A stretch of 64,000 bases of DNA from Galliscardovia ingluviei (GTDB lineage Bacteria > Actinomycetota > Actinomycetes > Actinomycetales > Bifidobacteriaceae): assembly GCF_014635685.1 (NCBI RefSeq), contig NZ_BMDH01000001.1, positions 124,001 through 188,000 on the forward strand, read 5' to 3'. Positions 1 through 38,037 of this stretch are shown here, in pieces. The position numbers and the translations under genes are program-made. Position 1 is the first letter of the stretch. Each line of letters begins with the position of its first letter. Below the pieces are notes generated by a model. It ran no database searches, was not told the origin of the DNA, and saw only the letters and a list, made by a program, of their open reading frames with translations.

Positions 1-81
1 TGCCTGTGCGACAGCTGGTGAGCTGGTCTGAGACAGAGTGTACAAAGTTGCGCTGCGAATGAATGCTTGCTTGAGATTCAT
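1..81 (-). CDS. N-terminal fragment of an unidentified protein, cut by window edge
   Basis: An ATG at 81-79 on the minus strand opens a reading frame that stays open to the window edge (27 codons, beginning MNLKQAFIRS). A ribosome binding site of the AAGGAA type lies just upstream (AGAAAGGAACAACA before the ATG). The fragment is too short to name. The two LacI-type operators in the leader region suggest a sugar-regulated gene such as a transporter or glycosidase, but that is inference from the operators alone. Confidence 0.5.
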   Translation of the reverse strand, partial: MNLKQAFIRSATLYTLSQTSSPAVAQA

Positions 82-141
82 TGTTGTTCCTTTCTTGTGT
101 ATTTCTTCCTGACGATTATTACTATAGCGCAACCACAAGAT

Positions 142-161
142 TTGCGCAAGCGTTTGTGCAA
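142..161. promoter_or_regulatory. LacI-family type operator, copy 1
   Basis: The 20-base site TTGCGCAAGCGTTTGTGCAA is an imperfect palindrome around a central CG, the usual geometry of LacI/GalR-family operators. It recurs almost unchanged at 345-364. It lies about 60 bases upstream of the minus-strand start at 81, a sensible position for repression of that gene. No lacI-type gene is visible in the window. Confidence 0.5.
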
Positions 162-344
162 AGTACTTACCGGTTGGTTGGTACTATTGATGTTTACGGC
201 GTGTCGTATATAGAATTGTTGAAATATATGGGTTCTATTTATGAATATAAGATGAACTACAATAAACATGGCAGTGAGATACTGGAGAAAATGAGCTGTT
301 AATTACTTCACAAATACTTCTATTTAATAGTGGGTTATCAGTAA

Positions 345-364
345 TTGCGCAATCGTTTGCGCAA
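345..364. promoter_or_regulatory. LacI-family type operator, copy 2
   Basis: TTGCGCAATCGTTTGCGCAA matches the site at 142-161 in 18 of 20 positions and is the more symmetrical copy (half-site GCGCAA on each side of a central CG). The two centres are about 203 bases apart, a distance compatible with looping by a tetrameric repressor. Target gene unproven. Confidence 0.5.
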
Positions 365-504
365 CATGAGTATGGAAACGAAATATTGAAGTACGAGTTT
401 GTGCAAGCTTCTGCAGTTCGATAATACAGTTCAACGGTCTTGTATCAAACTGATAAATGTTTATAATCTCAAGTAGTACAAGACGATTGATAAGGGTGAG
501 TGTA

Positions 505-939
505 GTGGCGGAACGTAAAGGGAATACAACATCTCCATCAAATACTAGCGTTGGATCATCGAGAACAACTGCTCAAAAAACAGCAATACATAATCAACTG
601 CGTCAAACACAAGACTTTATTTCGGCTCAAGAACTCCATAAACAATTGCAAGAACAAGGCATACGCATCGGCTTGGCGACGGTGTATCGTCAGCTCAATG
701 CGTTAGCTGCAAGTGGTCATGCGGATACTTTGCGCATGGGTGGAGAGCAGCTGTTTCGAGATTGCGCAGAGCGCTCTCCGGAACATCACCATCATTTAGT
801 GTGCGAACAATGTGGTAAAACGGTAGATATAGAGCCGCCTGAGGAGCAATGGTTTACTCAAGTGGCACAGCATCATGGGTTCAAAGTGCGTACGCATGTT
901 ATAGAAATATTTGGTATATGCCAAGAGTGCGCACAATAG
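505..939 (+). CDS. Fur-family metalloregulator, probably Zur (FurB)-type
   Basis: A 144-residue DNA-binding repressor of the Fur family. The N-terminal half carries the winged helix (ISAQELHKQL, then GLATVYRQLNAL). The C-terminal half has the histidine cluster EHHHHLVC, a first CxxC (CEQC) and a second CxxC near the end (CQEC), which hold the structural zinc. I chose GTG 505 because AAGG lies 9 bases upstream; an earlier in-frame ATG at 457 has no good ribosome binding site. The compact length and the two CxxC pairs favour a zinc-sensing Zur, but Fur or PerR cannot be excluded from sequence reading. It stands alone, with no obvious metal transporter beside it in this window. Confidence 0.8.
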   Translation: MAERKGNTTSPSNTSVGSSRTTAQKTAIHNQLRQTQDFISAQELHKQLQEQGIRIGLATVYRQLNALAASGHADTLRMGGEQLFRDCAERSPEHHHHLVCEQCGKTVDIEPPEEQWFTQVAQHHGFKVRTHVIEIFGICQECAQ

Positions 940-1047
940 TGTATTTGCGTATGGTAGAAATACGGTAGAAGTAGTGCTTAGTGTTCTTTGGTGATAGTGT
1001 TAAGGCGCTAGGAAGAGTGTATTTATAACATAAGCAATTGAGGCAAT

Positions 1048-2160
1048 ATGGCACTGACGCAACGCGAAGAAGAAATATTGGCATGCATTGAGCAAAATCC
1101 AATGATTTCGCAACAGGAGCTTGCATCCATGCTTGGTATTACTCGTTCTGGTACTGCAGCACATATTTTTAATCTGATGCGCAAAGGATATATTCAAGGT
1201 AAGGGGTATATCGTCTCTCCAGCGCAGTATGTTGCCGTTGTTGGTGGTGTAAATATTGATATTCATGGTATGGCCAGTGAACACGTAGTGGGCTTAAGTT
1301 CAAATGTCGGGCATTTGGTTACTTCTGTTGGTGGTATTGCACGCAATGTTGCCTACAATTTAACAAGTTTTGGGATTAAGAATTATCTTGTGGCACTGTA
1401 CGGCGATGATGCCAATGGTAAATTATTTAAGGAAGATGCGCGGCATCACAATATTGATATTACTCGATCGTTGCAGGTGCATGATAAAGCCAGTCAGTAT
1501 CTATCGGTGGTTTCCGCTAGTGGAGAGCAGATTGTAGCGCTTGATGATATGGGGATTAGTTCGGGGATTACTCCTCAGTTTCTTCAGCAACGGTTAGGGT
1601 TGTTTACCCAAGCTGCGATCACTGTACTTGATACCAGTCTTTCGCAGGAAGCCATTGCATGGTTGTGTGAGCATGTGCATAAGCCAATATATGCGCGTGT
1701 AGTTTCTGTTAATAAGGCACAGCGATTAGTTTCGGTGCTTGACCGTATTGATACGTTAGTGTTAGCAGCTACAGAAGCGCAGCTTGTTTCTGGTATTGAT
1801 GTGCGCAGTGTAGATGATGCTGTGCAGTGTGTACGCGTGCTGTGTGAAGCTGGTGTACGCACAGTAGCGCTATTGCTTAATGCAAGCACTGCTGTTTTTG
1901 CTCAAGAACATGAAGTATGGTTGGCTCGTATTCCTGAGGAATTGCTCGGAAAGCATTTAAGTAATGGTGCGCCGACTGCAATATTGAGTACATTAGCATG
2001 GCAGTATATAGAACAAGAGCATACTTTTCAAGAGATTATTGGTATGGCAATGGCGAGTGCTTCTTTGGTGCTAGATAGTGTTGAAGCAACTTGTACTGAT
2101 ATGACTGCCGAACAAGTAGAGCGTCGGGCTTTGTCAATTGAAGTGCAGCGGGTGCAATAG
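1048..2160 (+). CDS. HTH-PfkB fusion: pseudokinase-type transcriptional regulator
   Basis: A 370-residue protein with an N-terminal winged helix (about residues 1-52; ISQQELASMLGITRSG is the recognition part), followed by a PfkB/ribokinase-fold domain starting at VAVVGGVNIDIHG. This is the architecture of E. coli YeiI-like and PsuK-like proteins. Here the GAGD anion-hole/catalytic-base motif is replaced by NGAPT near residue 306, and the KPN motif of helix entry is LAAT, so phosphotransfer is unlikely. Its closest visible relative is the next gene, with which it shares YGDDANGK, ITPQFLQ and the VS.xKAxR segment. I infer a tandem duplicate converted into a ligand-sensing regulator of the downstream operon. 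Confidence 0.75.
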   Translation: MALTQREEEILACIEQNPMISQQELASMLGITRSGTAAHIFNLMRKGYIQGKGYIVSPAQYVAVVGGVNIDIHGMASEHVVGLSSNVGHLVTSVGGIARNVAYNLTSFGIKNYLVALYGDDANGKLFKEDARHHNIDITRSLQVHDKASQYLSVVSASGEQIVALDDMGISSGITPQFLQQRLGLFTQAAITVLDTSLSQEAIAWLCEHVHKPIYARVVSVNKAQRLVSVLDRIDTLVLAATEAQLVSGIDVRSVDDAVQCVRVLCEAGVRTVALLLNASTAVFAQEHEVWLARIPEELLGKHLSNGAPTAILSTLAWQYIEQEHTFQEIIGMAMASASLVLDSVEATCTDMTAEQVERRALSIEVQRVQ

Positions 2161-2263
2161 TGTAGTTTGCATGTACAAAGTGGTGCATAACAGTACATTG
2201 TATTGAGCAACACGCAATAAACAAAAGTTGTGCTTAATAAACACATGTTGTATATTGGGTGTT

Positions 2264-2279
2264 GGTTAAACGCTTGACC
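2264..2279. promoter_or_regulatory. LacI-like palindrome overlapping the -35 of the catabolic operon
   Basis: GGTTAAACGCTTGACC is a near-palindrome with a central CG. Its last six bases, TTGACC (2274-2279), form a good -35 box, followed 17 bases later by GATACG. A repressor bound here would block the promoter of the kinase-to-permease operon. The half-site differs from that of the operators at 142 and 345, so a different regulator is implied. Confidence 0.4.
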
Positions 2280-2320
2280 TATGTGTAATCAGTGTGGATA
2301 CGATAGGAAGAGGAGGAAAT

Positions 2321-3289
2321 ATGGAAGCAATGAAGCCCCAAAAACCATACGCTATAGTTATCGGCGGCATGAATATGGATATTTGTGGTCGCCCTCATAC
2401 AACCGTAATTGATCGAGACTCAAACCCTGGTGTAGTAAGTTTATCTGCAGGTGGAGTAGGACAAAATATTGCACAAAATATGGCACATCTTGGCATACCA
2501 ACATATTTAATAACTGTCTATGGTGATGATGCCAATGGAAAATCATTAGCAGATGCATGCGCAGCAAATAATATTCATTTAGACTATGCTGCACAATTGC
2601 CTGGAAGACGTTCGTCTACCTATATGTTTATTACTGATGAAACAGGCGATATGTTAGTTGCGGTTAATGATATGGATATTTGTAAAGAAATAACACCGCA
2701 ATTTTTGCAAGAACGCCTTGAAGTGATCAATCATGCAGCCATCTGTGTACTTGATGCTAATTTAGAGCCTGAAACCCTTACATGGATTGGCGAACATGTT
2801 ACAGCGCCGCTTTTTGGAGATACTGTATCAACTATTAAAGCCCATCGTTTTGAGCCAATTCTAGATAAAATGACGATGCTCAAGCCAAATGATTTGGAAG
2901 CATCAGTACTTACCGGCATTAGTATCACTAATCAATACACTGCGGGTGCTGCGGCAAAGACCTTACTTGATCGAGGCGTTGCTCATGTATTTATATCGCT
3001 CGGGGCGCACGGCATGCTTTGTGCAAAACATAGCGAACAAGGATATGACTTTATCCATGTGCCTCCATACAAAACCAATATTGCTACAGCTAATGGTGCT
3101 GGCGACTCTGGTATGGCAGCAATAGTGTGGAGTTTCTTTGACAATCCAGATCGTGAATTGCAAGAAGTTGGGCGTATCGCACAAGCTGCATCAAGTATTG
3201 CTCTGGAATGCACTAAAGCAGTTCCAGATATCACTGTTGAGCGTATGTATAAGAAAATGCAAACTGATGTAGAAATCAACGCACAATAA
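2321..3289 (+). CDS. PfkB-family carbohydrate or nucleoside kinase
   Basis: A 322-residue sugar/nucleoside kinase of the ribokinase family, related to pseudouridine kinase PsuK. Visible motifs in order: GGMNMDICG at the N terminus, the substrate/PfkB signature AGGVGQNIAQNMAHLG, YGDDANGK, MLKPNDLEA, and the intact catalytic motif NGAGDSG near the C terminus, whose Asp is the base. ATG 2321 is chosen because AGGAGG ends 4 bases before it; an upstream ATG at 2294 has no such signal. It is the first gene of a tight run with the TrpF-like gene, alcohol dehydrogenase, nucleoside hydrolase and permease. The substrate is probably ribose, a nucleoside or a related pentose, inferred from this context. 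No PsuG partner is present. Confidence 0.8.
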   Translation: MEAMKPQKPYAIVIGGMNMDICGRPHTTVIDRDSNPGVVSLSAGGVGQNIAQNMAHLGIPTYLITVYGDDANGKSLADACAANNIHLDYAAQLPGRRSSTYMFITDETGDMLVAVNDMDICKEITPQFLQERLEVINHAAICVLDANLEPETLTWIGEHVTAPLFGDTVSTIKAHRFEPILDKMTMLKPNDLEASVLTGISITNQYTAGAAAKTLLDRGVAHVFISLGAHGMLCAKHSEQGYDFIHVPPYKTNIATANGAGDSGMAAIVWSFFDNPDRELQEVGRIAQAASSIALECTKAVPDITVERMYKKMQTDVEINAQ

Positions 3290-3376
3290 AGAGTACGCAA
3301 GAAAATCAGTGTGCGGCAAGGTTTTGCCAATACATTTCATTGAAAAATTATCAATATACCAATACAGGGGGAGACT

Positions 3377-4069
3377 ATGGTAGTTAAACAAATCTATTCC
3401 ATTATTGAATACGAAGAAGCATTGCAAACTATTGCAGCAGGCGCTGACCATCTAGGGCTTGTACCGATGCAACATGGAGGTGTACCAGCACATCGTGTGC
3501 CACTTGAGCGCGTCGATAAGATTTTTGCAGCATGCCGCGAACATGGTGTAGTAGCAGTGGCTATTATGCTCACCAATGATCCTGATGAGATGATCGAACT
3601 AGCCCAGCGCGTTAAGCCAGATATTTTGCATATTGCTGGAGATGGGTATGCAGCAGACGAGGCGTTTGCCCAGCGTCTGAAAGAAGCAGTGCCAGGGATT
3701 AAGCTGATGCAAGCGGTGCTTGTAGATAATGCTACCGCCATAGATCGTGCAAAACAATACGCGCAGTATTGTGATTTTATTCTCACCGACTCCGGACTCG
3801 CGCCTGATACCGGAATCGGAGCAAGTGGCCTTACTCACGATTGGAGCATTGATGCTGCAATCGTACGCGAATGTGGCAAGCCAGTTATTATGGCAGGTGG
3901 GCTTGGTCCAGATAATGTTGCAGATGCTATTAAACAGTGCCACCCATATGGCGTAGATTCACTAACAAAGACCAGTATTAAATACGAAGGTGGATTTATG
4001 CAAAAAGATATTGCACTGGTCAAGAAATTCTGCGAAGAAGCAGATAGAGCTGCATCCCAGCTTGCATAA
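3377..4069 (+). CDS. TrpF-like (phosphoribosylanthranilate isomerase-fold) protein lacking catalytic Cys
   Basis: A 230-residue TIM-barrel protein recognisable as TrpF family from its overall pattern: AGADHLGLV early, HDWS, and the phosphate-binding GGLGPDNV. Established TrpF enzymes use a Cys in a KICGIT strand and a later Asp. Here the first strand reads VKQIYSI with no Cys, while an Asp remains in ILTDSG (about residue 136). The usual VSSGVE phosphate loop is replaced by LTKTSIKYEGG. It sits between a sugar kinase and an iron alcohol dehydrogenase (17-base gap to the latter), not among trp genes. I infer an isomerase or epimerase acting on a sugar phosphate rather than tryptophan synthesis. 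Ribosome binding site GGGGGAG precedes ATG 3377. Confidence 0.7.
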   Translation: MVVKQIYSIIEYEEALQTIAAGADHLGLVPMQHGGVPAHRVPLERVDKIFAACREHGVVAVAIMLTNDPDEMIELAQRVKPDILHIAGDGYAADEAFAQRLKEAVPGIKLMQAVLVDNATAIDRAKQYAQYCDFILTDSGLAPDTGIGASGLTHDWSIDAAIVRECGKPVIMAGGLGPDNVADAIKQCHPYGVDSLTKTSIKYEGGFMQKDIALVKKFCEEADRAASQLA

Positions 4070-4086
4070 GCACAGTAGGAGTTGAA

Positions 4087-5277
4087 ATGGATTCATTATC
4101 AATATCCATGGTACAACCAGTGCAAGTAGTATACAGTGAGCATCTCGCGCAAAGCCTTGTCAGCATTTGCGATAGAGAAGGCTACTCCCGCGTGCTGGTG
4201 GTAACAGATAGTGTTATACATTCGTTAGCACCAGTGCAAGAGGCGATTGCTGCACTTGAACAAACTGGCAGGCAGATTGCAGTATTCGATAGCATACATG
4301 CAGATCCTCATATAGCAACGGTTGATGATGGAGCAGCACGCTATCGTGAACATCAAGCCGATTGTATTCTTGCCATTGGCGGTGGCAGTGTGCTCGATGT
4401 TGCACGAGGAATTGCCATTGTGGCGACGCATGGCGGCAGCATTGCCGACTATGTAGAACTCTCTGGTAGCAATGGTCAGCCAAAACGTCGCGCTACTCAA
4501 CGATGCCAGGGTCTTATCAGTGTGCCAACAACATCAGGTACAGGTAGCGAACTATCTAATGCGCTCATTGTAACTGATGAACATGGTAATAAACTTGCTG
4601 TGCTGGCAGATAATGCAACCAGCACATATGCGGTGCTCGACCCTACATTAACGCTTAATTTGCCGCAACGCATGACTATTGCTACTGGTCTTGATGCTTT
4701 TTGCCATGCTGCAGAAGGCTACCTATCGGCTTTAGCTAATCCGATAACGGATGCAATAGATGAAAAAGTTATGTTCTTACTCTATAACTATCTGCCTCGC
4801 GCAGTAGCTGATGGCAACGATCTTGAAGCTCGCCGTAGAGTAATGATTGCAGCAAGTCTGGCAGGTTGGAGTCTCAACCAAGCAGGTACTATTGTCGGTC
4901 ATTCAATAGCACATGTGCTGGGAGCTCAACATCACATCGTGCATGGAGAGGCAGTGGGCTATGCGCTACCAGCAGTTGTGGAATTTGTTGCTGACGTGCG
5001 TGAACACAAAGTACGGGAGATTGGCAAAATTTTGGGTGCGCAAATTCCAGACCATGCTCCCCTCGATCAGGTACGAGCTATTGTCGTTCGTGCCATTTTG
5101 GAATTTAGAGATTCTATGCTTGGACTACACCCATTTGAAGATTATGGCATTAGCCATGAAACATTAGTATCCTACGCGCCTGCAGTTGTTAATGAACGAT
5201 TTGCTGGTAACACGCCAAAACCAATAGATACTGCGGATGCCGCATGGTTACTAGAACGTTTTGGCAGTCGAAAATAG
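4087..5277 (+). CDS. Iron-containing (group III) alcohol dehydrogenase
   Basis: A 396-residue NAD(P)-dependent dehydrogenase of the Fe-ADH/glycerol dehydrogenase superfamily. The N-terminal nucleotide-binding domain shows AIGGGSVLDVARG, then VPTTSGTGSE. The C-terminal metal domain has the ligands in GLDAFCHAAEGY and in GHSIAHVLGAQHHIVHG. All features of an active enzyme are present. The family reduces aldehydes or ketones or oxidises polyols; the substrate cannot be read from sequence. It is preceded by AGGAG and lies 17 bases after the TrpF-like gene and 44 bases before the nucleoside hydrolase, so it belongs to the same transcript and probably acts on a carbon intermediate from the nucleoside sugar. 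Confidence 0.85.
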   Translation: MDSLSISMVQPVQVVYSEHLAQSLVSICDREGYSRVLVVTDSVIHSLAPVQEAIAALEQTGRQIAVFDSIHADPHIATVDDGAARYREHQADCILAIGGGSVLDVARGIAIVATHGGSIADYVELSGSNGQPKRRATQRCQGLISVPTTSGTGSELSNALIVTDEHGNKLAVLADNATSTYAVLDPTLTLNLPQRMTIATGLDAFCHAAEGYLSALANPITDAIDEKVMFLLYNYLPRAVADGNDLEARRRVMIAASLAGWSLNQAGTIVGHSIAHVLGAQHHIVHGEAVGYALPAVVEFVADVREHKVREIGKILGAQIPDHAPLDQVRAIVVRAILEFRDSMLGLHPFEDYGISHETLVSYAPAVVNERFAGNTPKPIDTADAAWLLERFGSRK

Positions 5278-5321
5278 ATTTCAAATACTGTGTACAGCAG
5301 GTATTTGCAGAAAGGAACACA

Positions 5322-6263
5322 ATGACAACACCGATTATTTTGGATTGCGATCCAGGACATGATGACGCAGTTGCTATTTTATTGGCAGTTGGTAATCCTG
5401 AAATCGAGCTACTAGGAGTGACCACTGTTGGCGGCAATCAAAGCCTTGAAAAGGTGACTTATAATGCTCGAGCTGTTTTAGAAAAAGCTCATGCAACTGA
5501 TATCCCAGTTTATGCTGGCTGCGATAGACCTATTGTGCGTACTCAAGAAGTTGCAGCATCCATTCATGGTGAAACGGGTCTTGACGGTGTTGAGCTTCCT
5601 GTGCCAAGCCGTCCACTTGAATCCACGCATGCTGTTAACTACATTATTGACACTATTATGAGCCACGAGCCGGGTACCATTACCTTAGTGCCGACCGGCC
5701 CTCTCACCAATATTGCTATGGCAGCACGCTTAGAACCAAGAATTGTTGAGCGTGTGAAAGAAATTGTATTGATGGGCGGTGGCGTTCATGAAGGCAATTG
5801 GAGTGCGGTAGCAGAATTTAATATTAAAGTTGATCCAGAAGCGGCACATATTGTGTTCAATGAGCCATGGAAACTTACTATGGTTGGTCTTGATGTAACG
5901 CATAAGGCTCTGTGCACTCCTCAAGTACAACAGCGTATTGAAAGTCTTGACACTGATTTGGCTCACTTTGTTTCTGGACTTATGGATTTCTTCCGTAAAA
6001 CATATCAGGACAATCAGGACTTCATTGATCCTCCAGTGCATGATCCTTGCACAGTAGCATACCTGATTGATCGTTCAGTAATTGAGACCCGCCGTTGCCC
6101 ACTCGATGTTGAAATTCATGGTGAAACCACGTTGGGTATGACTGTTGCCGATTTGCGAGGGCCAGAACCAAGTGAAGAAGAGTGCCATACACAAGTTGGT
6201 CTGGGTCTGCATGTTGAACGCTTCTGGGATTTGGTAACTGACGCTATCAAGCGTATCGGCTAA
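5322..6263 (+). CDS. Inosine-uridine preferring type nucleoside hydrolase
   Basis: A 313-residue ribonucleoside hydrolase that cleaves the N-glycosidic bond to give free base and ribose. The calcium-binding signature DCDPGHDDA lies at the N terminus, GVHEGNW and AEFNIKVDPEAA occupy the middle, and the conserved HDPCTVAYL is near the end; these are the standard active-site elements. Start ATG 5322 follows AAAGGAAC; longer in-frame starts overlap the previous gene without a ribosome binding site. The protein has no signal peptide and is cytoplasmic, so nucleosides must be imported, consistent with the permease gene 35 bases downstream. Base preference cannot be deduced with certainty. Confidence 0.9.
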   Translation: MTTPIILDCDPGHDDAVAILLAVGNPEIELLGVTTVGGNQSLEKVTYNARAVLEKAHATDIPVYAGCDRPIVRTQEVAASIHGETGLDGVELPVPSRPLESTHAVNYIIDTIMSHEPGTITLVPTGPLTNIAMAARLEPRIVERVKEIVLMGGGVHEGNWSAVAEFNIKVDPEAAHIVFNEPWKLTMVGLDVTHKALCTPQVQQRIESLDTDLAHFVSGLMDFFRKTYQDNQDFIDPPVHDPCTVAYLIDRSVIETRRCPLDVEIHGETTLGMTVADLRGPEPSEEECHTQVGLGLHVERFWDLVTDAIKRIG

Positions 6264-6298
6264 CACAAACTTCATATAGGAACCAAGTAAAAGGACAT

Positions 6299-7717
6299 AT
6301 GATGACTACTACAAAGTCAGAACCAATGTTAGATCAAGGTGGAAAATCTATTGTTGCCTTGATGACTGCTCTTATGGCTGCAATTTTCGCATTCCAGCTC
6401 AACGCTTCTATGCTTTCTCCAGCACTTACTACAATGCGTATCGAGTTGAATACCACCGATGCACAAATTGGTTTAACACAGACGGTGTTCTTCACATCAT
6501 GCGCAGTGTTTTCTCTATTCCTGCCGCGTTTAGGTGATTTAATTGGTCGCCGCAAAGTACTGCTGGGAATTTTGACACTTACCGCTGTGGGTTGCGCTAT
6601 TTCAGCACTATCTGTGAACGTAACCATGTTGATGATTGGACGTGTAGTTCAAGGTGTTGCTGGTCCTATTGTGCCAATGACACTGATTATGCTGCATCAT
6701 AAGGTTACTGAAGATGCACGGTATGCACGACTGATGGCAATCCTTACCTCGGTAAACGGTGGTATTGGCGGCGTAGATGCTATCTTGGGAGGCTGGCTTG
6801 CTGGCACATTCGGTTTCCGTTCAGTATTCTGGGTGATGGTTGGTGTAGCAGTGCTCGCCATTATCATGGTATTTGCATGGAGCGAGGAAAGCACCGCAAG
6901 TGAAACGCCAAAGATGGATTGGGCAGGTGTTATTTTCCTTGCCGCAGCATTCTTGGCAGCATATTTGGCCATCAATGAAATTCAGAAACTCGCTGACGCA
7001 AATTGGGTGCTGGTTATTGTAGAAATTGTTATCGCAGCAGTACTATTCGTGGTGTTCTGGAATGTGGAAAATCGTCAGCAGCACCCAATGGTTACTACTC
7101 ACTATTTGAAGCAGCGCCGTACTTGGGGTCTGTTACTGACCACACTGCTGACTATGACTGGTGTATTTGCCATTATGAACGGTATCGTTCCAGCACTTGC
7201 ACAAGATAGCGAATTTGGCACTGGTATGAGTGCTAGCGTAGTGTCCTTTGCTACACTGACACCATATGCTCTTGTTGGTTTAGCTTTTGGACCTGTTGCT
7301 GGTATTTTGGCTTCACGATTCGGCTATCGTATGGTGCTGCGTGGTGGTCTGATCGCCAGCGTAGTATTTGTGCTCTTCGGTATCTATTTATGCAAGGTTC
7401 CTAGCATTTGGGCTCTCGTTGTGTTGTCAGTTGCGCTAGGTATTTCTTATGCAGGCACTGCCAATATTATGCTTAACGGTTTGGGTATTGTGCTTTCCCC
7501 AGAGGATAATCCTGGATATCTGCCAGGTTTGAATTCTGGCGCATTCAATTTGGGTGCAGGTTTAAGCTATGCAGTACTGTATGCTGCTCAAAAGGCACTG
7601 ACTGCTTCTAGTGGCGCAACTGCAGGATATATTGCTGCGATGGTTGCTGGATTGATTCTATTAGCTCTGGCATTCTGCTCGTCATTGCTTATTCCTAAGC
7701 CAGCACAACACCAGTAA
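6299..7717 (+). CDS. MFS transporter, multidrug/sugar-type (DHA2-like)
   Basis: A 472-residue polytopic membrane protein of the major facilitator superfamily. Hydrophobic segments run through the whole length, starting at about residue 18. The loop between helices 2 and 3 carries GDLIGRRKVL, the MFS signature, and the RVVQGVAGP pattern follows in helix 4; the length and number of hydrophobic stretches suggest 12 to 14 helices. A GGACAT sequence precedes ATG 6299. As the last gene of the operon it is the likely importer of the nucleoside or sugar handled by the upstream enzymes, although DHA2 proteins are often exporters. It is followed by a strong bidirectional hairpin at 7801-7838. Confidence 0.85.
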   Translation: MMTTTKSEPMLDQGGKSIVALMTALMAAIFAFQLNASMLSPALTTMRIELNTTDAQIGLTQTVFFTSCAVFSLFLPRLGDLIGRRKVLLGILTLTAVGCAISALSVNVTMLMIGRVVQGVAGPIVPMTLIMLHHKVTEDARYARLMAILTSVNGGIGGVDAILGGWLAGTFGFRSVFWVMVGVAVLAIIMVFAWSEESTASETPKMDWAGVIFLAAAFLAAYLAINEIQKLADANWVLVIVEIVIAAVLFVVFWNVENRQQHPMVTTHYLKQRRTWGLLLTTLLTMTGVFAIMNGIVPALAQDSEFGTGMSASVVSFATLTPYALVGLAFGPVAGILASRFGYRMVLRGGLIASVVFVLFGIYLCKVPSIWALVVLSVALGISYAGTANIMLNGLGIVLSPEDNPGYLPGLNSGAFNLGAGLSYAVLYAAQKALTASSGATAGYIAAMVAGLILLALAFCSSLLIPKPAQHQ

Positions 7718-7800
7718 TACATATTGCGCGAAGCGGTTGTATGAGAGTGAAATACCCGCATACATAAATCAATAGTGTGCGTGAGCTTTGCGGACATATA

Positions 7801-7838
7801 ATAATCGGGGTTTTCCCATTGTGGAAGACCCCGATTAT
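7801..7838. terminator. Bidirectional terminator between MFS gene and purD
   Basis: Perfect 11-base arms ATAATCGGGGT (7801-7811) and ACCCCGATTAT (7828-7838), with further pairing in the loop (TTCC/GGAA). It lies between the convergent MFS and purD genes. Confidence 0.8.
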
Positions 7839-7929
7839 GTATAGCAAATGCAGTAGTTACGACTATGCATAGACGCGTAGTTGTACGTACAGATATGCAG
7901 GTACTGCAATCTTGCACATAGTGCCTTAC

Positions 7930-9207
7930 TTAAGCAGCGTGCAATGCTTTAGCGCCAATGTCATGACGATAGAACATTCCTGGAAGCTCTAAAGCATCAA
8001 GAATTTCATACACGCGATCTTGAGCCTGCTGCAATGTTGGTTGTGAAGTTTCGATTAAGAATACACGCCCAGAGTTTGCTACGATATGCTCAGCATCCTC
8101 GCCCTCAACACCAGCATAATACACATGAGTATGATCATCGAATTGAGGAAGCTGAGGAACCTGCGCTCCTTTAATAACAGCCGTAGGATAGCCCTCGGAT
8201 GCCACAACCACGCCAAGAGTAGCGCACTGCGTATCCCAAACAAATTCTGGAGTCTGACCTTTCAGCAGATTGCTAATAGCTAGCCCCAAATCGCTAGTAA
8301 GCTGTGGCAATACCACTTCAGTTTCTGGGTCTCCAAAGCGAGCATTAAACTCAATCACTTTAGGGCCATCAGCAGTAGCAATAAGACCGGCATATAAAAT
8401 ACCAGTAAATGGAGTGCCTTCATCCACCATAGCTTGAGTGACAGGGCGAATAATCGTATCGATTGCCGTAGTCACCATATCCTGGCTAATTTGAGGCACA
8501 GGGCTGTATGCACCCATACCTCCAGTATTTGGACCTAAATCATGATCAAATGCGCGCTTATGGTCCTGTGAAATTGGCATAGGCCAGAACTCATTGCCAC
8601 GCACAAAGCACATCAGTGAAAATTCTTGACCTTCAAGGAATTCTTCAATCACCACACTAGCTCCAGCTGAGCCAAATCGATGATCAAGGAAAATCTCTTC
8701 AAGAGCATGCAAAGCGCTATCCATATCCATAGCAACAGTAACGCCTTTGCCGGCAGCTAGACCATCAGCTTTAACCACAATTGGTGCACCAACGTGCTCA
8801 ACATAAGCTTTTGCTTGTTCATATGATGAAAAACTTGCATATGCTGCAGTTGGTACGCTGTGGCGCTCCATCAATTCTTTAGCAAATGTCTTAGAACCCT
8901 CAATTTGCGCTGCTGCACGATGAGGGCCGAAAGCAGGGATTCTAGCTGCTTCAAAATCGTCAACGATTCCCTCAATCAAAGGCACTTCGGGTCCGACAAA
9001 CACCCAGTCAACATTATTTTGGCGAGCAAAATCAATAAGTGCTGCATGATTAGACTCACTTAATTGCACAACATGAATACCGTCACGTTGCATACCGATA
9101 TTACCAGGCGCACAATATACAGTTTCCACACTTGCTCCACGCAAAAGTGTATGTGCGATAGTATGTTCGCGTGCTCCCGAACCAATAACTAGAATACGCT
9201 GTCCCAT
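7930..9207 (-). CDS. purD: Phosphoribosylamine-glycine ligase (GAR synthetase)
   Basis: A 425-residue ATP-grasp enzyme that ligates glycine to phosphoribosylamine, step 2 of de novo purine synthesis. It opens with MGQRILVIGSGAREH, the standard PurD start. ATP-grasp signatures are visible as IVVKADGLAAGKGV, EEFLEGQEFS, GPNTGGMGAYSP and IEFNARFGDPE. The start at 9207 is supported by AAGGAGC 3 bases upstream; the longer frame to 9285 has no such signal. It is downstream of purM and purF on the same strand, with 80 bases between purM and this start, so the three probably form one transcript ending at the hairpin at 7801-7838. Confidence 0.97.
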   Translation of the reverse strand: MGQRILVIGSGAREHTIAHTLLRGASVETVYCAPGNIGMQRDGIHVVQLSESNHAALIDFARQNNVDWVFVGPEVPLIEGIVDDFEAARIPAFGPHRAAAQIEGSKTFAKELMERHSVPTAAYASFSSYEQAKAYVEHVGAPIVVKADGLAAGKGVTVAMDMDSALHALEEIFLDHRFGSAGASVVIEEFLEGQEFSLMCFVRGNEFWPMPISQDHKRAFDHDLGPNTGGMGAYSPVPQISQDMVTTAIDTIIRPVTQAMVDEGTPFTGILYAGLIATADGPKVIEFNARFGDPETEVVLPQLTSDLGLAISNLLKGQTPEFVWDTQCATLGVVVASEGYPTAVIKGAQVPQLPQFDDHTHVYYAGVEGEDAEHIVANSGRVFLIETSQPTLQQAQDRVYEILDALELPGMFYRHDIGAKALHAA

Positions 9208-9287
9208 AATGCTCCTTAGCTCCTGCGCTTGTACAAGGATGTGATAGAAGTGGGTTTTGGTAGAGAAAGGTTTGTAGTACTGCAATA

Positions 9288-10325
9288 CTATGCGAATACT
9301 ACGCGGTCTTCGCCTGACTGCTCAACAATACTGCCAATAATATGATATGGCTCATTAGCATCGTTAAGCAACGCAGTGGCAGTATCTAATTGTTCTGGCT
9401 TAATAGCAAGTACCATGCCAATGCCCATATTGAAAATATTGAACATTTCCACATGATCAACCTGACCTGCACGTTCAATAACATCAAAAATAGGTAGTAC
9501 TGGAACATCATTAAGCGAAATCTGCGCAGCAAGCCCCTGAGGAATCATACGCGGAATATTCTCAATAAAACCACCACCGGTAATATGTGCTACACCACGC
9601 ACTACACCAGCTTTGAACAGTGGCAGCAACGTTTTCACATAAATACGAGTTGGTGTCAGCAGCACTTCTCCAAGTGTTTTGCCACCGAACTCGTCAAGCA
9701 CAGTATCGACACTGTAACCAGCCTGTTCAAATAATGCCTTGCGTACTAAAGAAAAGCCGTTAGAATGTACTCCGCTTGAAGGAAGCCCTACAAGCACATC
9801 GCCTTCGCAAATGGTAGAACCATCAACAATGGCGGATTTTTCAGCAACACCAACAGCAAAGCCTGCTAAGTCGTATTCGGTAGGGTCATACATGCCAGGC
9901 ATTTCTGCAGTTTCTCCGCCAATTAAAGCGCACCCAGCCTGCACACAACCATCAGCAACGCCAGCAACAACCTGCTCAAGCAGTGCTGGATCATTAGCGC
10001 CGCATGCGATGTAGTCAAGGAAAAACAGTGGTTCTGCGCCTTGTGCCGCAATGTCATTAACGCACATTGCCACGCAGTCAATGCCTATGGTGTTGTGCTG
10101 GTGTGCCATATTAGCCACCATCAACTTAGTACCTACGCCGTCAGTACCAGAAATCAGTACAGGTTCTTGGTATCCAAGAGAGGCGAGGTCAAATAGACCG
10201 CCAAAACCGCCAAGTCCTCCTAAAACCCCTGGCCGTTCAGTACGTTTGACATGTGCTCCAATACGGCGCACAACCTCATATCCCGCTTCTACGCTAACTC
10301 CCGCATTTTCGTAGGCTGATGGCAT
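9288..10325 (-). CDS. purM: Phosphoribosylformylglycinamidine cyclo-ligase (AIR synthetase)
   Basis: A 345-residue enzyme that closes the imidazole ring of AIR from FGAM with ATP, step 5 of purine synthesis. Diagnostic segments are [13 protein letters not shown], the [18 protein letters not shown] stretch, [11 protein letters not shown] and [13 protein letters not shown]. Length is normal for the family. The ATG at 10325 follows GAAAGGAATATC. It lies 62 bases downstream of purF; that gap contains the hairpin 10344-10367 without a T-run. Confidence 0.97.
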
Positions 10326-10343
10326 GATATTCCTTTCGGTGTG

Positions 10344-10367
10344 TGCCGCACGGCCGTACCTGCGGCA
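10344..10367 (-). other. Hairpin between purF and purM
   Basis: Perfect 7-base arms TGCCGCA and TGCGGCA around a 10-base loop in the purF-purM gap. No T-run follows on either strand, so it is better read as a processing or stabilising element than as a terminator. Confidence 0.35.
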
Positions 10368-10387
10368 GATTTAGTTGCAGGTTTTGG

Positions 10388-11926
10388 CTAGTTTTGGCTC
10401 TTTACTTCGTGTTGCTCGGTATGCACTACGGTATTAGTGGTGAATTCGTTACCAATATACGTACTTGCATCATGAGCGAAACGAGGAATACGTTCGCGAT
10501 CTTCTTGGGTAAGGGATGCAAGGAACTCTTCCTCATAATCACCCAGTGCAGTTGGATAATCCCCGTTAAAGTACGCTACACATAAGCCTCCATATGGAGC
10601 ATCGGCATGAAGTCCAATGGAGTCCACTAGTCCTTCAAGGCTTAAGAATTCCAAGGAATCTGCGCCAATATAATCACGAATTTCTTCTACAGACTTTTTC
10701 GCAGCAATTAACTCTTTGGTAGTGGAAATATCAATACCGTAGAAGCATGGGTATTTCAATGGCGGTGAGGAGATGCGCATATGAACTTCACTCGCTCCCG
10801 CTTCGCGCAAAAGCTGCACAATACGGCGTGATGTTGTACCGCGCACAATAGAATCGTCGATTACCACTACACGTTTGCCTTGTACCACGCCGCGCACTGC
10901 AGCCAGTTTCATACGCACGCCTTGTTCGCGCAATTCTTGTGTAGGCTGAATAAAAGTTCGTGCTACATACTGGTTTTTAATTAAGCCCATTTCATTAGGC
11001 AAGTGAGCAGTTTCTGAATAGCCGCTTGCTGCTGAAAGCGAGGAATTTGGTACGGCAATAACCATATCCGCATCTACTGGAGCCTCTTGAGCAAGGCGAG
11101 CGCCCATACGTTTGCGAGCAGAATGGACATTGACACCATAAATATTGGAATCAGGACGTGCGAAATAGATAAACTCCATCGAGCAGATAGCAAGCTGCGT
11201 CTGATCGGTGTATGTGGTGATGTGGTATCCGCTATCGTCGATAACGATGATTTCACCCGGGCGAATATCGCGAATAAGCTCAGCGCCCACAATATCCAAA
11301 GCGCAAGTCTCTGAAGCTAATACGTAAGCGCCGTTACGCATTTGCCCGAGCGACAGCGGTCTAAAGCCGTTAGGGTCGAGTGCGCCAATCATAGCGTCTT
11401 CAGTAAGCAGTAAGTAAGCAAATCCGCCGTGTACTTGGCGCAGGGATTCCTTAAGCTTATCCATAAATGTTGGCTGCTGTGAGCGGCGCAGCAAATGCAT
11501 AAGCACTTCTGTATCAGAATTAGAGTGGAAAATAGCACCCTGATCTTCAAGCTCTTTGCGCAATGACTGGCTATTGGTGAGATTGCCGTTATGTGCTAAT
11601 GCCATATCGCCATCATTAAAGCGGAATAAGAATGGCTGAATATTGTCAACTGATCCGGATCCTGCTGTGGCATAGCGCACGTGACCGATAGCACGACTAC
11701 CTTGTAGTCGAGTAATCTCACGTTCGTCGCTAAATACTTGTGTCAGTAGTCCTAGGTCGCGGTGACCAATTAAATGACCTTGATTATTGGAAACAATGCC
11801 TGCACCCTCTTGTCCGCGGTGTTGCAAAGCATGGAGACCAAAGTATGTAAGACGAGATGCGTCGGGGTGTCCCCAGACGCCGAAAATACCACATTCTTCG
11901 TGAATGTCTTCGAGTTCGACGGACAT
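10388..11926 (-). CDS. purF: Amidophosphoribosyltransferase
   Basis: A 512-residue glutamine PRPP amidotransferase, the first committed step of purine synthesis. The N-terminal nucleophile glutaminase begins at Cys12 in [10 protein letters not shown], so an 11-residue propeptide must be removed. The PRPP loop [16 protein letters not shown] and the C-terminal phosphoribosyltransferase fold follow. Cysteines at [15 protein letters not shown] and GGLCVAYF sit where Bacillus-type enzymes bind a 4Fe-4S cluster, so this is probably the iron-sulfur form. The ATG at 11926 is preceded by GGAAGCC. It leads the purF-purM-purD block and is divergent from the SOS polymerase gene. Confidence 0.97.
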
Positions 11927-12066
11927 GCCTAATGGCTTCCTTCCTCAAGTAGGGAAATAGAAGTATTGCCAATCGTTACGCGACTACTCTAGCAATCAGT
12001 GTTGATATTAGGCAACATTATTTCTGAATGTGGATACCGATGAAGAGACACCAACATCTTTGATTC

Positions 12067-37918: not shown

Positions 37919-38037
37919 ATTTGAAAAAAGACTTGCATCAAGTTCGTTATTGGTATTTTCTGCAGGCGTCAAAACTATAAAAGAGCCTTCGGGTTTGAGC
38001 ATTGTAAAGAGGCTTGGAGGCTACTGTCACTACATAC

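Follow-up and report, generated by a model that had tools for sequence, protein, structure and literature searches.

The window analysed here is a stretch of 64,000 nucleotides from Galliscardovia ingluviei (contig NZ_BMDH01000001.1, positions 124,001 to 188,000), and near its start lie five genes that encode a PfkB-family kinase, a TrpF-like barrel, an iron-type alcohol dehydrogenase (Fe-ADH), the nucleoside hydrolase UriH and the transporter UriT. Judged from sequence, these genes are two units, the pair UriH-UriT and a rarer upstream cassette made up of a helix-turn-helix (HTH)-PfkB regulator, the kinase, the barrel and the Fe-ADH. We propose, with about an even chance of being right, that the cassette beside UriH-UriT is a pseudouridine catabolic route that does without PsuG, in which the kinase phosphorylates, the barrel opens or cleaves, and the Fe-ADH reduces. 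An earlier, sequence-only reading of this DNA had named five open reading frames (ORFs) on one strand and all of them are present on the plus strand, but the regulator gene, a sixth on the same strand, had been overlooked.

The best match of the kinase in the PDB is E. coli PsuK (EcPsuK; 7vkp, E 4e-54), to which it is 35% identical. The residues of EcPsuK that hold pseudouridine or lie near the metal are described in PMC9247573, where it is also reported that the enzyme is inactive on adenosine, uridine, thymidine, cytidine, guanosine and inosine and has about 7% activity on N1-methyl-pseudouridine. When 16 substrate and catalytic positions of EcPsuK were compared by MAFFT alignment, it was found that the window kinase and each of the other 12 cassette kinases (13/13) keep 16 of 16. 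Seven distinct PsuKs from PsuG-bearing genomes, which are 30-39% identical to EcPsuK, keep 12, 12, 13, 13, 15, 16 and 16 of these positions, and as these controls are tblastn segments some of the differences may be alignment effects. Three PfkB kinases (PfkB_II) from type II operons keep 6-7 and four ribokinase domains keep 7-8 of 16; here and below, type I denotes cassettes of the window's type and type II the related operons with an energy-coupling factor (ECF) transporter. The PsuK equivalog model NF007355 is the best-scoring model for the window kinase, yet at 196.3 bits it remains under the cut-off of 540, and the ribokinase model TIGR02152 gave 96.5 bits, under its cut-off of 299.65. The prediction that this is a pseudouridine kinase is well supported, and a plain ribokinase role is disfavoured by the site residues. 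The sequence-only reading was right in placing the TrpF-fold protein and the Fe-ADH outside the standard ribose routes, but its suggestion that the kinase can phosphorylate ribose does not agree with a kinase in which every residue of the pseudouridine site is present.

Of 189 Bifidobacteriaceae genomes searched for the barrel gene, 26 gave a match (E <= 1e-12). Ten matches, including that of the window's own genome, are close (73-79% identity in the other nine); a second barrel type with 32-40% identity is present in seven genomes, with G180 holding both types, and the ten genomes that have only weaker matches (32-37%) probably carry true TrpF. By tblastn, the full gene order of the window, HTH-PfkB gene included, recurs at eight of the nine other close loci, which exceeds what chance would give; the ninth locus, L029, has only the kinase, the barrel and the ADH. 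A close kinase (at least 64% identity) is found in exactly the same 10 of 189 genomes as the barrel, and the cassette ADH is found in 11, which are the same 10 plus G022. The G022 sequence (L163:8193-9032) is an ADH remnant of about residues 105-395 with one stop that adjoins UriH-UriT, no kinase or barrel match was found at that locus, and the remnant suggests that the cassette was lost there. In the tree the 12 type I barrels form one group (support 100/100). PsuG (Indigoidine_A, PF04227) was looked for in the cassette genomes, 10 from Bifidobacteriaceae and four from Firmicutes (completeness of the latter not stated), and none gave a match; among the 189 genomes it is present in one, G015, which is cassette-free.

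Outside Bifidobacteriaceae the cassette occurs in one Bacillota metagenome-assembled genome and in Eubacteriaceae. At L050 and L052 a divergent HTH-PfkB gene is followed by kinase, barrel and ADH, at L049 there are a kinase, a barrel and a divergent ADH, and L051 is interrupted by a contig end. Neither a hydrolase nor UriT was found in the 18.7 kb fetched for L050 and L052. The stretches fetched for the cassettes at L046, L049, L050 and L052 gave no hydrolase, the search for UriH in the last three being confined to those stretches, and these cassettes suggest that the route starts from a nucleoside and not from free ribose. In the open-access literature, bioRxiv preprints excluded, no description was found of the five- or six-gene set or of a PsuG-free pseudouridine route, in agreement with the earlier remark that no described pathway with this exact set was known to the reader.

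UriH and UriT pass their NCBIfam cut-offs (NF052221, 531.7 bits against 450, and NF052222, 666.9 bits against 600), and UriH matches 6ba0 with an E of 1.3e-170. UriH is present in 87 of the 189 genomes (E <= 1e-100), in 10 with the close barrel gene and in 77 without it. Among 15 cassette-free UriH loci selected from the 87 genomes (L164-L178), nine (L164-L172) have hydrolase and transporter with no match to the kinase queries, two (L175 and L178) have UriH-UriT plus the HTH-PfkB gene with the cassette absent, one (L173) has a ribokinase-like gene beside the hydrolase and no UriT, and three (L174, L176 and L177) have the hydrolase with neither kinase nor UriT. A fur-like gene and purD flank three of the 15 loci (L165, L168 and L172), as they do in the window, whose purD occupies 7930-9285 of the minus strand. 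From these comparisons the locus resembles a usual UriH-UriT site that carries additional upstream genes. The window UriH shares up to 83% identity with its counterparts in cassette-free genomes. The self-contained import-cleave-convert unit of the sequence-only reading stands insofar as the genes are conserved together and provide for the import and cleavage of a nucleoside, but it is not a single five-gene invention, since UriH and UriT are a known pair and 77 of the 87 UriH genomes lack the cassette.

The AlphaFold2 model of the barrel has a predicted local distance difference test score of 93.4, and in a Foldseek search against the PDB its ten best matches were all TrpF (1dl3, template modelling score 0.76 by query and 0.89 by target). 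In TrpF, Cys7 at the end of strand 1 is the catalytic Cys and Asp126 (in T. maritima) is the general acid. The alignment of barrels took in the window sequence and 46 of the 61 members, near copies being omitted; these members are L117 and the 60 matches that exceed 150 bits. In all 47 rows Tyr7 stands at the position of the catalytic Cys, which is lost, and D138, the equivalent of Asp126, is kept. The same 47 rows show no variation at His85, Asn180, Asp194, Ser195 and Thr199, and Arg40 and Lys198 are kept in six of six type I rows, Lys198 in some others as well. That the barrel is an ordinary TrpF which makes tryptophan and merely happens to lie in a nucleoside operon is extremely improbable: it has the TrpF fold and a match to the Pfam family PRAI, but it is under every NCBIfam TrpF cut-off matched (best 86.5 bits against 215), it has Tyr for the catalytic Cys, and a branch (100/99) separates it from a third group of TrpF-like genes and from two TrpFs, the only close ones included. 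The window genome moreover encodes PriA (391 bits, cut-off 306.45), which supplies this activity, so tryptophan synthesis does not need the barrel gene, and on these grounds, the presence of PriA and the loss of the Cys, a tryptophan role was rejected. The Fe-ADH has the motifs GLDAFCH, GHSIAH and HGEAV, which presumably form its metal site, and aligns to solved methanol and propanediol dehydrogenases. The kinase, the barrel and this ADH would also fit a 2-deoxyribose route in which the barrel would take the place of DeoC and ethanol would be formed from acetaldehyde by the ADH, and no DeoC match was found in the window genome (95.6% complete). This route is nevertheless very improbable, as nucleoside hydrolases of UriH's family act poorly on deoxynucleosides and DeoC is over its cut-off in four of the 10 type I genomes (G006, G092, G103 and G197), a co-occurrence for which the barrel as a DeoC replacement was rejected.

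In the pseudouridine route that we propose, UriT would import uridine and, we infer, pseudouridine, and UriH would split uridine to uracil and ribose. In pseudouridine a C-C bond joins base and sugar, which a nucleoside hydrolase cannot split, and the kinase would instead convert this nucleoside to pseudouridine 5'-phosphate, as the pocket residues of the kinase support. The barrel would then act on pseudouridine 5'-phosphate in the place of PsuG. In TrpF the Asp protonates the ring oxygen and opens the furanose of phosphoribosyl-anthranilate, and since pseudouridine 5'-phosphate can be seen as the same kind of compound with carbon at the linkage, an electron-rich ring that bears a 5-phosphoribosyl group, protonation of its ring oxygen by Asp138 and opening of the furanose would be natural. 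As the C2' base (Cys) is gone, cleavage or an altered isomerisation would be favoured at this point, and with Tyr for Cys the barrel may cleave C2'-C3' to give glyceraldehyde 3-phosphate and uracil-5-acetaldehyde or isomerise the opened sugar to a 2'-ketose, after which the carbonyl compound so formed would be reduced by the Fe-ADH, with NAD(P)H as the donor. A more specific version is put forward only tentatively, and we consider it rather doubtful: that the Cys-to-Tyr TrpF-fold enzyme opens pseudouridine 5'-phosphate and cleaves its sugar chain and not the base-sugar bond, that glyceraldehyde 3-phosphate and a 5-substituted uracil result, the latter being reduced by the ADH, and that barrels of this kind, together with PfkB kinases of other sorts, act in a whole family of unstudied routes for nucleosides or pentoses among Firmicutes, Actinomycetota and Chloroflexota.

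The HTH-PfkB protein is related to the kinase but reads SNGAPTA where the kinase reads NGAGD and is without the catalytic Asp; it would sense a nucleoside and control the operon. It keeps 11 of the 16 PsuK positions and has T at position 256; among 11 regulators, whose presence at each locus was taken from the top-match listing and tblastn, 11-13 positions are kept and position 256 is lost in all 11. With this Asp missing from its kinase signature, the protein is likely a nucleoside sensor. Inverted repeats were found upstream of all nine other cassette kinases as well as of the window's, and an operator search upstream of these ten kinases gave no motif common to all.

The cassette barrel belongs to a wider family, which was examined in a genome-contig scan that retained 80 of 107 relatives. 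With a profile of the operon barrels, 60 matches in 59 loci scored above 150 bits, and the neighbours within 7 kb include a PfkB gene in 57 of the 60 cases, a hydrolase in 43, an Fe-ADH in 37 and a haloacid dehalogenase-type (HAD) phosphatase in 26, as against none of the four for 21 lower-scoring matches; many of the loci are closely related and not independent, and the low-scoring set is of different taxonomy. Of the three PfkB misses, L051 and L064 are at contig ends and L056 has a Pfam PfkB match. At L057 (8992-10581) a single ORF of 529 residues joins a TrpF-like barrel to a PfkB kinase, a fusion that is a sign that the two act in sequence. The commonest relatives are the type II operons, which have an ECF transporter (CD3073-like S component, under its cut-off), a TrpF-like barrel, a distinct PfkB kinase, a hydrolase, a HAD phosphatase and a YqhD-like Fe-ADH, and often also a ribokinase-like gene and a LacI-ribokinase fusion. 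These operons (L033-L039, L054, L066-L072, L078, L081, L082 and L086) are hosted by Bifidobacteriaceae, Coriobacteria, Lachnospiraceae and lactobacilli, and in some of them the hydrolase is elsewhere in the operon; L054 has two differing TrpF-like genes, at 4487-5179 and 8992-9657, the second of which sits between the HAD and Fe-ADH genes. No paper on CD3073 was found in the open-access literature. The Fe-ADHs of types I and II are 24-28% identical to each other and have different best NCBIfam models.

The type II operons bear on a ribose route, in which the kinase would phosphorylate the ribose released by UriH, the barrel would isomerise or cleave the pentose phosphate and the ADH would reduce glycolaldehyde to ethylene glycol, as in haloarchaea. 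PMC9700705 describes the same kinds of enzymes in the haloarchaeal pathway, namely a PfkB kinase, an isomerase, a HAD phosphatase, an aldolase and a reductase; a HAD phosphatase is an extra member of the type II operons, in most of which a hydrolase gene lies close to that of the kinase, and the divergent Fe-ADHs of the two types look as if they were recruited twice for a small aldehyde. For the window this ribose route is unlikely, as its kinase has the residues of a pseudouridine site and not of a ribokinase, some cassettes gave no hydrolase within the stretch fetched, and the window locus has neither phosphatase nor aldolase, that is, no ribulose bisphosphate phosphatase (HAD) or ribulose 1-phosphate aldolase gene beside the kinase. 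Furthermore, according to PMC13011590, the bifid shunt already handles ribose 5-phosphate in bifidobacteria. The isomerisation followed by a reduction or oxidation of a pentose (phosphate) that the sequence-only reading had suggested is kept as a rival in this form, with the hydrolase-free cassettes counting against it. For the type II operons the ribose route is a good candidate. Quite unlikely for the window is the salvage of a sugar-modified nucleoside such as 2'-O-methyluridine, where the hydrolase would free 2-O-methylribose, the kinase would phosphorylate it, the barrel would act as an aldolase to give glyceraldehyde 3-phosphate and methoxyacetaldehyde, and the ADH would reduce the latter. 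Known 2'-O-methyluridine hydrolases cluster with a DERA-like aldolase that is no substitute for DeoC and with a ribokinase (PMC6278475), and 2-O-methylated ribose would be barred from the normal isomerase route, but the pocket of the window kinase is that of a nucleoside kinase, the window UriH is hardly set apart from cassette-free UriH (identity as given above), and there are again the cassettes with no nearby hydrolase.

Several observations weigh against the pseudouridine route. The absence of PsuG from the Bifidobacteriaceae cassette genomes says little because 188 of the 189 genomes are without it. When PsuG was tested in the 31 genomes behind TrpF-like loci, it was found in eight of the 11 genomes whose TrpF-like locus has no Fe-ADH and in two of the 20 whose locus has one (in one of these a 42-position fragment); for this split, which was chosen post hoc among genomes that are not independent, the Fisher p is 7e-4. 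The substrate of the barrel is one that we infer, and a barrel that did no more than hydrolyse the glycosidic bond would leave the ADH with nothing to do. The genome of L029 and L046, a Bifidobacterium whose cassette is hydrolase-free, has UriH elsewhere (G092). Most barrels of the wider family pair with PfkB kinases that lack the pseudouridine pocket, often with a hydrolase, and the genomes of L061 and L073 have a TrpF-like/PfkB pair, with no ADH or hydrolase there, in addition to PsuG and a PsuK with 16 of 16 positions. As L061 and L073 carry both PsuK and PsuG and eight of the 11 ADH-less genomes have PsuG, the TrpF-like family is not generally for pseudouridine. The HTH-PfkB gene adjoins UriH-UriT without the cassette at L175 and L178, so the regulator may sense uridine. 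At L025 the sequence GATAAAACGTTTCATC, about 66 bases 5' of the kinase start, agrees at 15 of 16 positions with the core of the RbsR3 consensus published in PMC4746261, pointing to a ribose or nucleoside regulon. Finally, the B. longum strains tested in PMC13011590 did not grow on cytidine, inosine or uridine; the cluster discussed in that paper differs from that of the window and has rbsK, a DcuC-like transporter and rihC.

The type II operons and the L061 and L073 pairs must have another substrate, given that the type II kinases are without the pseudouridine site and that L061 and L073 also have PsuK and PsuG, and the best leads, by analogy, may be a haloarchaea-like ribose or pentose-phosphate route or a 2'-O-methylribose route. 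Other genes seen at TrpF-like/PfkB loci, of which L091 is one, are those of nucleoside-type ABC transporters (L063, L084 and L095), GlmS-like SIS proteins (L063 and L084), UPF0047/YjbQ (L063, L084 and L091) and BtpA/SgcQ (L063). A gene that replaces the barrel beside PfkB_II was not found in Clostridia, where PfkB_II (E <= 1e-65, at most five candidates scored per genome) is present in two of 391 genomes, one of which was the search centre. The third TrpF-like group (L097, L100, L102-L112, L114-L116 and L118-L121) is mainly from Ignavibacteria and Bacteroidota and mostly has QIAGV or QVAGI at strand 1 and a GATGKTHD-like loop, L107 and L115 reading VKICANK. None of the operon families was found nearby, and motifs and tree place these low-scoring loci in a group separate from true TrpFs. 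In the surroundings of the 20 lower-scoring genes, apart from the query family and an antisense ORF that lies within it, only small neighbour clusters of 3-4 loci each, none an operon family, were found.

The features of the locus are given in Table 1. In the five ORFs the matches to PfkB, PRAI, Fe-ADH, IU_nuc_hydro and MFS_1 exceed the curated Pfam cut-offs. The kinase starts at ATG 2321, with an alternative in-frame GTG at 2294 from which the kinase query sequences were taken, and the hydrolase starts at ATG 5322, the hydrolase queries (5319-6260) being one residue longer than the protein from this start. The intergenic gaps from kinase to barrel, ADH, UriH and UriT are 87, 17, about 44 and 35 bases, a spacing compatible with a single transcript. 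The claim of one promoter is unsupported, as a sigma-70 scan of 1-12000 gave 21 sites against 24.5 expected from shuffling and none in 2161-2320. Elsewhere in the window, a marginal Rfam match to abiF RNA is at 37985-38020 on the minus strand (37.9 bits, gathering threshold 37).

Table 1. Features of the locus, in window coordinates
Feature	Position	Strand	Remarks
HTH-PfkB regulator	1048..2160	+	Winged HTH (Pfam HTH_24/MarR) and PfkB (PsuK/YeiI-like) domain
Intergenic stretch 5' of kinase	2161..2320	unstranded	AT-rich inverted repeat AATAAACACATGTTGTATATT; candidate operator/promoter
PfkB-family kinase, predicted pseudouridine kinase	2321..3289	+	EcPsuK match, site residues
TrpF-like (beta/alpha)8 barrel	3377..4069	+	Pfam PRAI 50.1 bits; predicted substrate a 5'-phosphorylated nucleoside
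Iron-type alcohol dehydrogenase (Fe-ADH)	4087..5277	+	Pfam Fe-ADH, ADH_Fe_C; predicted reducer of the carbonyl product
UriH, uridine-preferring nucleoside hydrolase	5322..6263	+	Pfam IU_nuc_hydro; NCBIfam NF052221; PDB 6ba0
UriT, major facilitator superfamily (MFS) uridine transporter	6299..7717	+	Pfam MFS_1; NCBIfam NF052222

The uri operon of Corynebacterium glutamicum is uriR-rbsK1-uriT-uriH. The window resembles it, and the bifidobacterial rihC/rihT and iunH/iunT regulons described in PMC4746261, in having UriH and UriT over the NCBIfam cut-offs, and differs from them in that the kinase is not RbsK, a TrpF-like gene and an ADH are added, and an HTH-PfkB protein replaces the LacI-type regulator. 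With E. coli PsuK-PsuG it shares a kinase identical at the 16 aligned site positions and, as a predicted intermediate, pseudouridine 5'-phosphate; unlike that system, the cassette is without PsuG and has the TrpF-like barrel, the iron ADH and an HTH regulator with an Asp-less PfkB domain. The barrel is like TrpF in its fold, its general-acid Asp and an AGGL..NV motif, and unlike it in the change of Cys7 to Tyr, in a loop that reads HD where TrpF has FD, and in its nucleoside operon context. The haloarchaeal non-carboxylating pentose bisphosphate pathway, as described in PMC9700705, is matched in the PfkB kinase, an isomerase-type step and, in type II only, a HAD phosphatase, and its reductase, an annotated glycerol-1-phosphate dehydrogenase, is the counterpart of the ADH; it differs in that the operons here have a nucleoside hydrolase and not a phosphorylase and that the type I kinase has a pseudouridine site. 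Neither a ribose 1,5-bisphosphate isomerase nor a FucA-type aldolase was recognised in the annotated operons.

The cassette is real, conserved and undescribed in the open-access literature searched, and it is best filed as a variant of pseudouridine and uridine salvage. If the pseudouridine route is true, a different set of enzymes would explain the fate of pseudouridine in gut bifidobacteria and clostridia that are without PsuG, and the cassette could yield new uracil derivatives. For the broad TrpF-like family, whose members resemble tryptophan genes by family models, it would also be the first function assigned.

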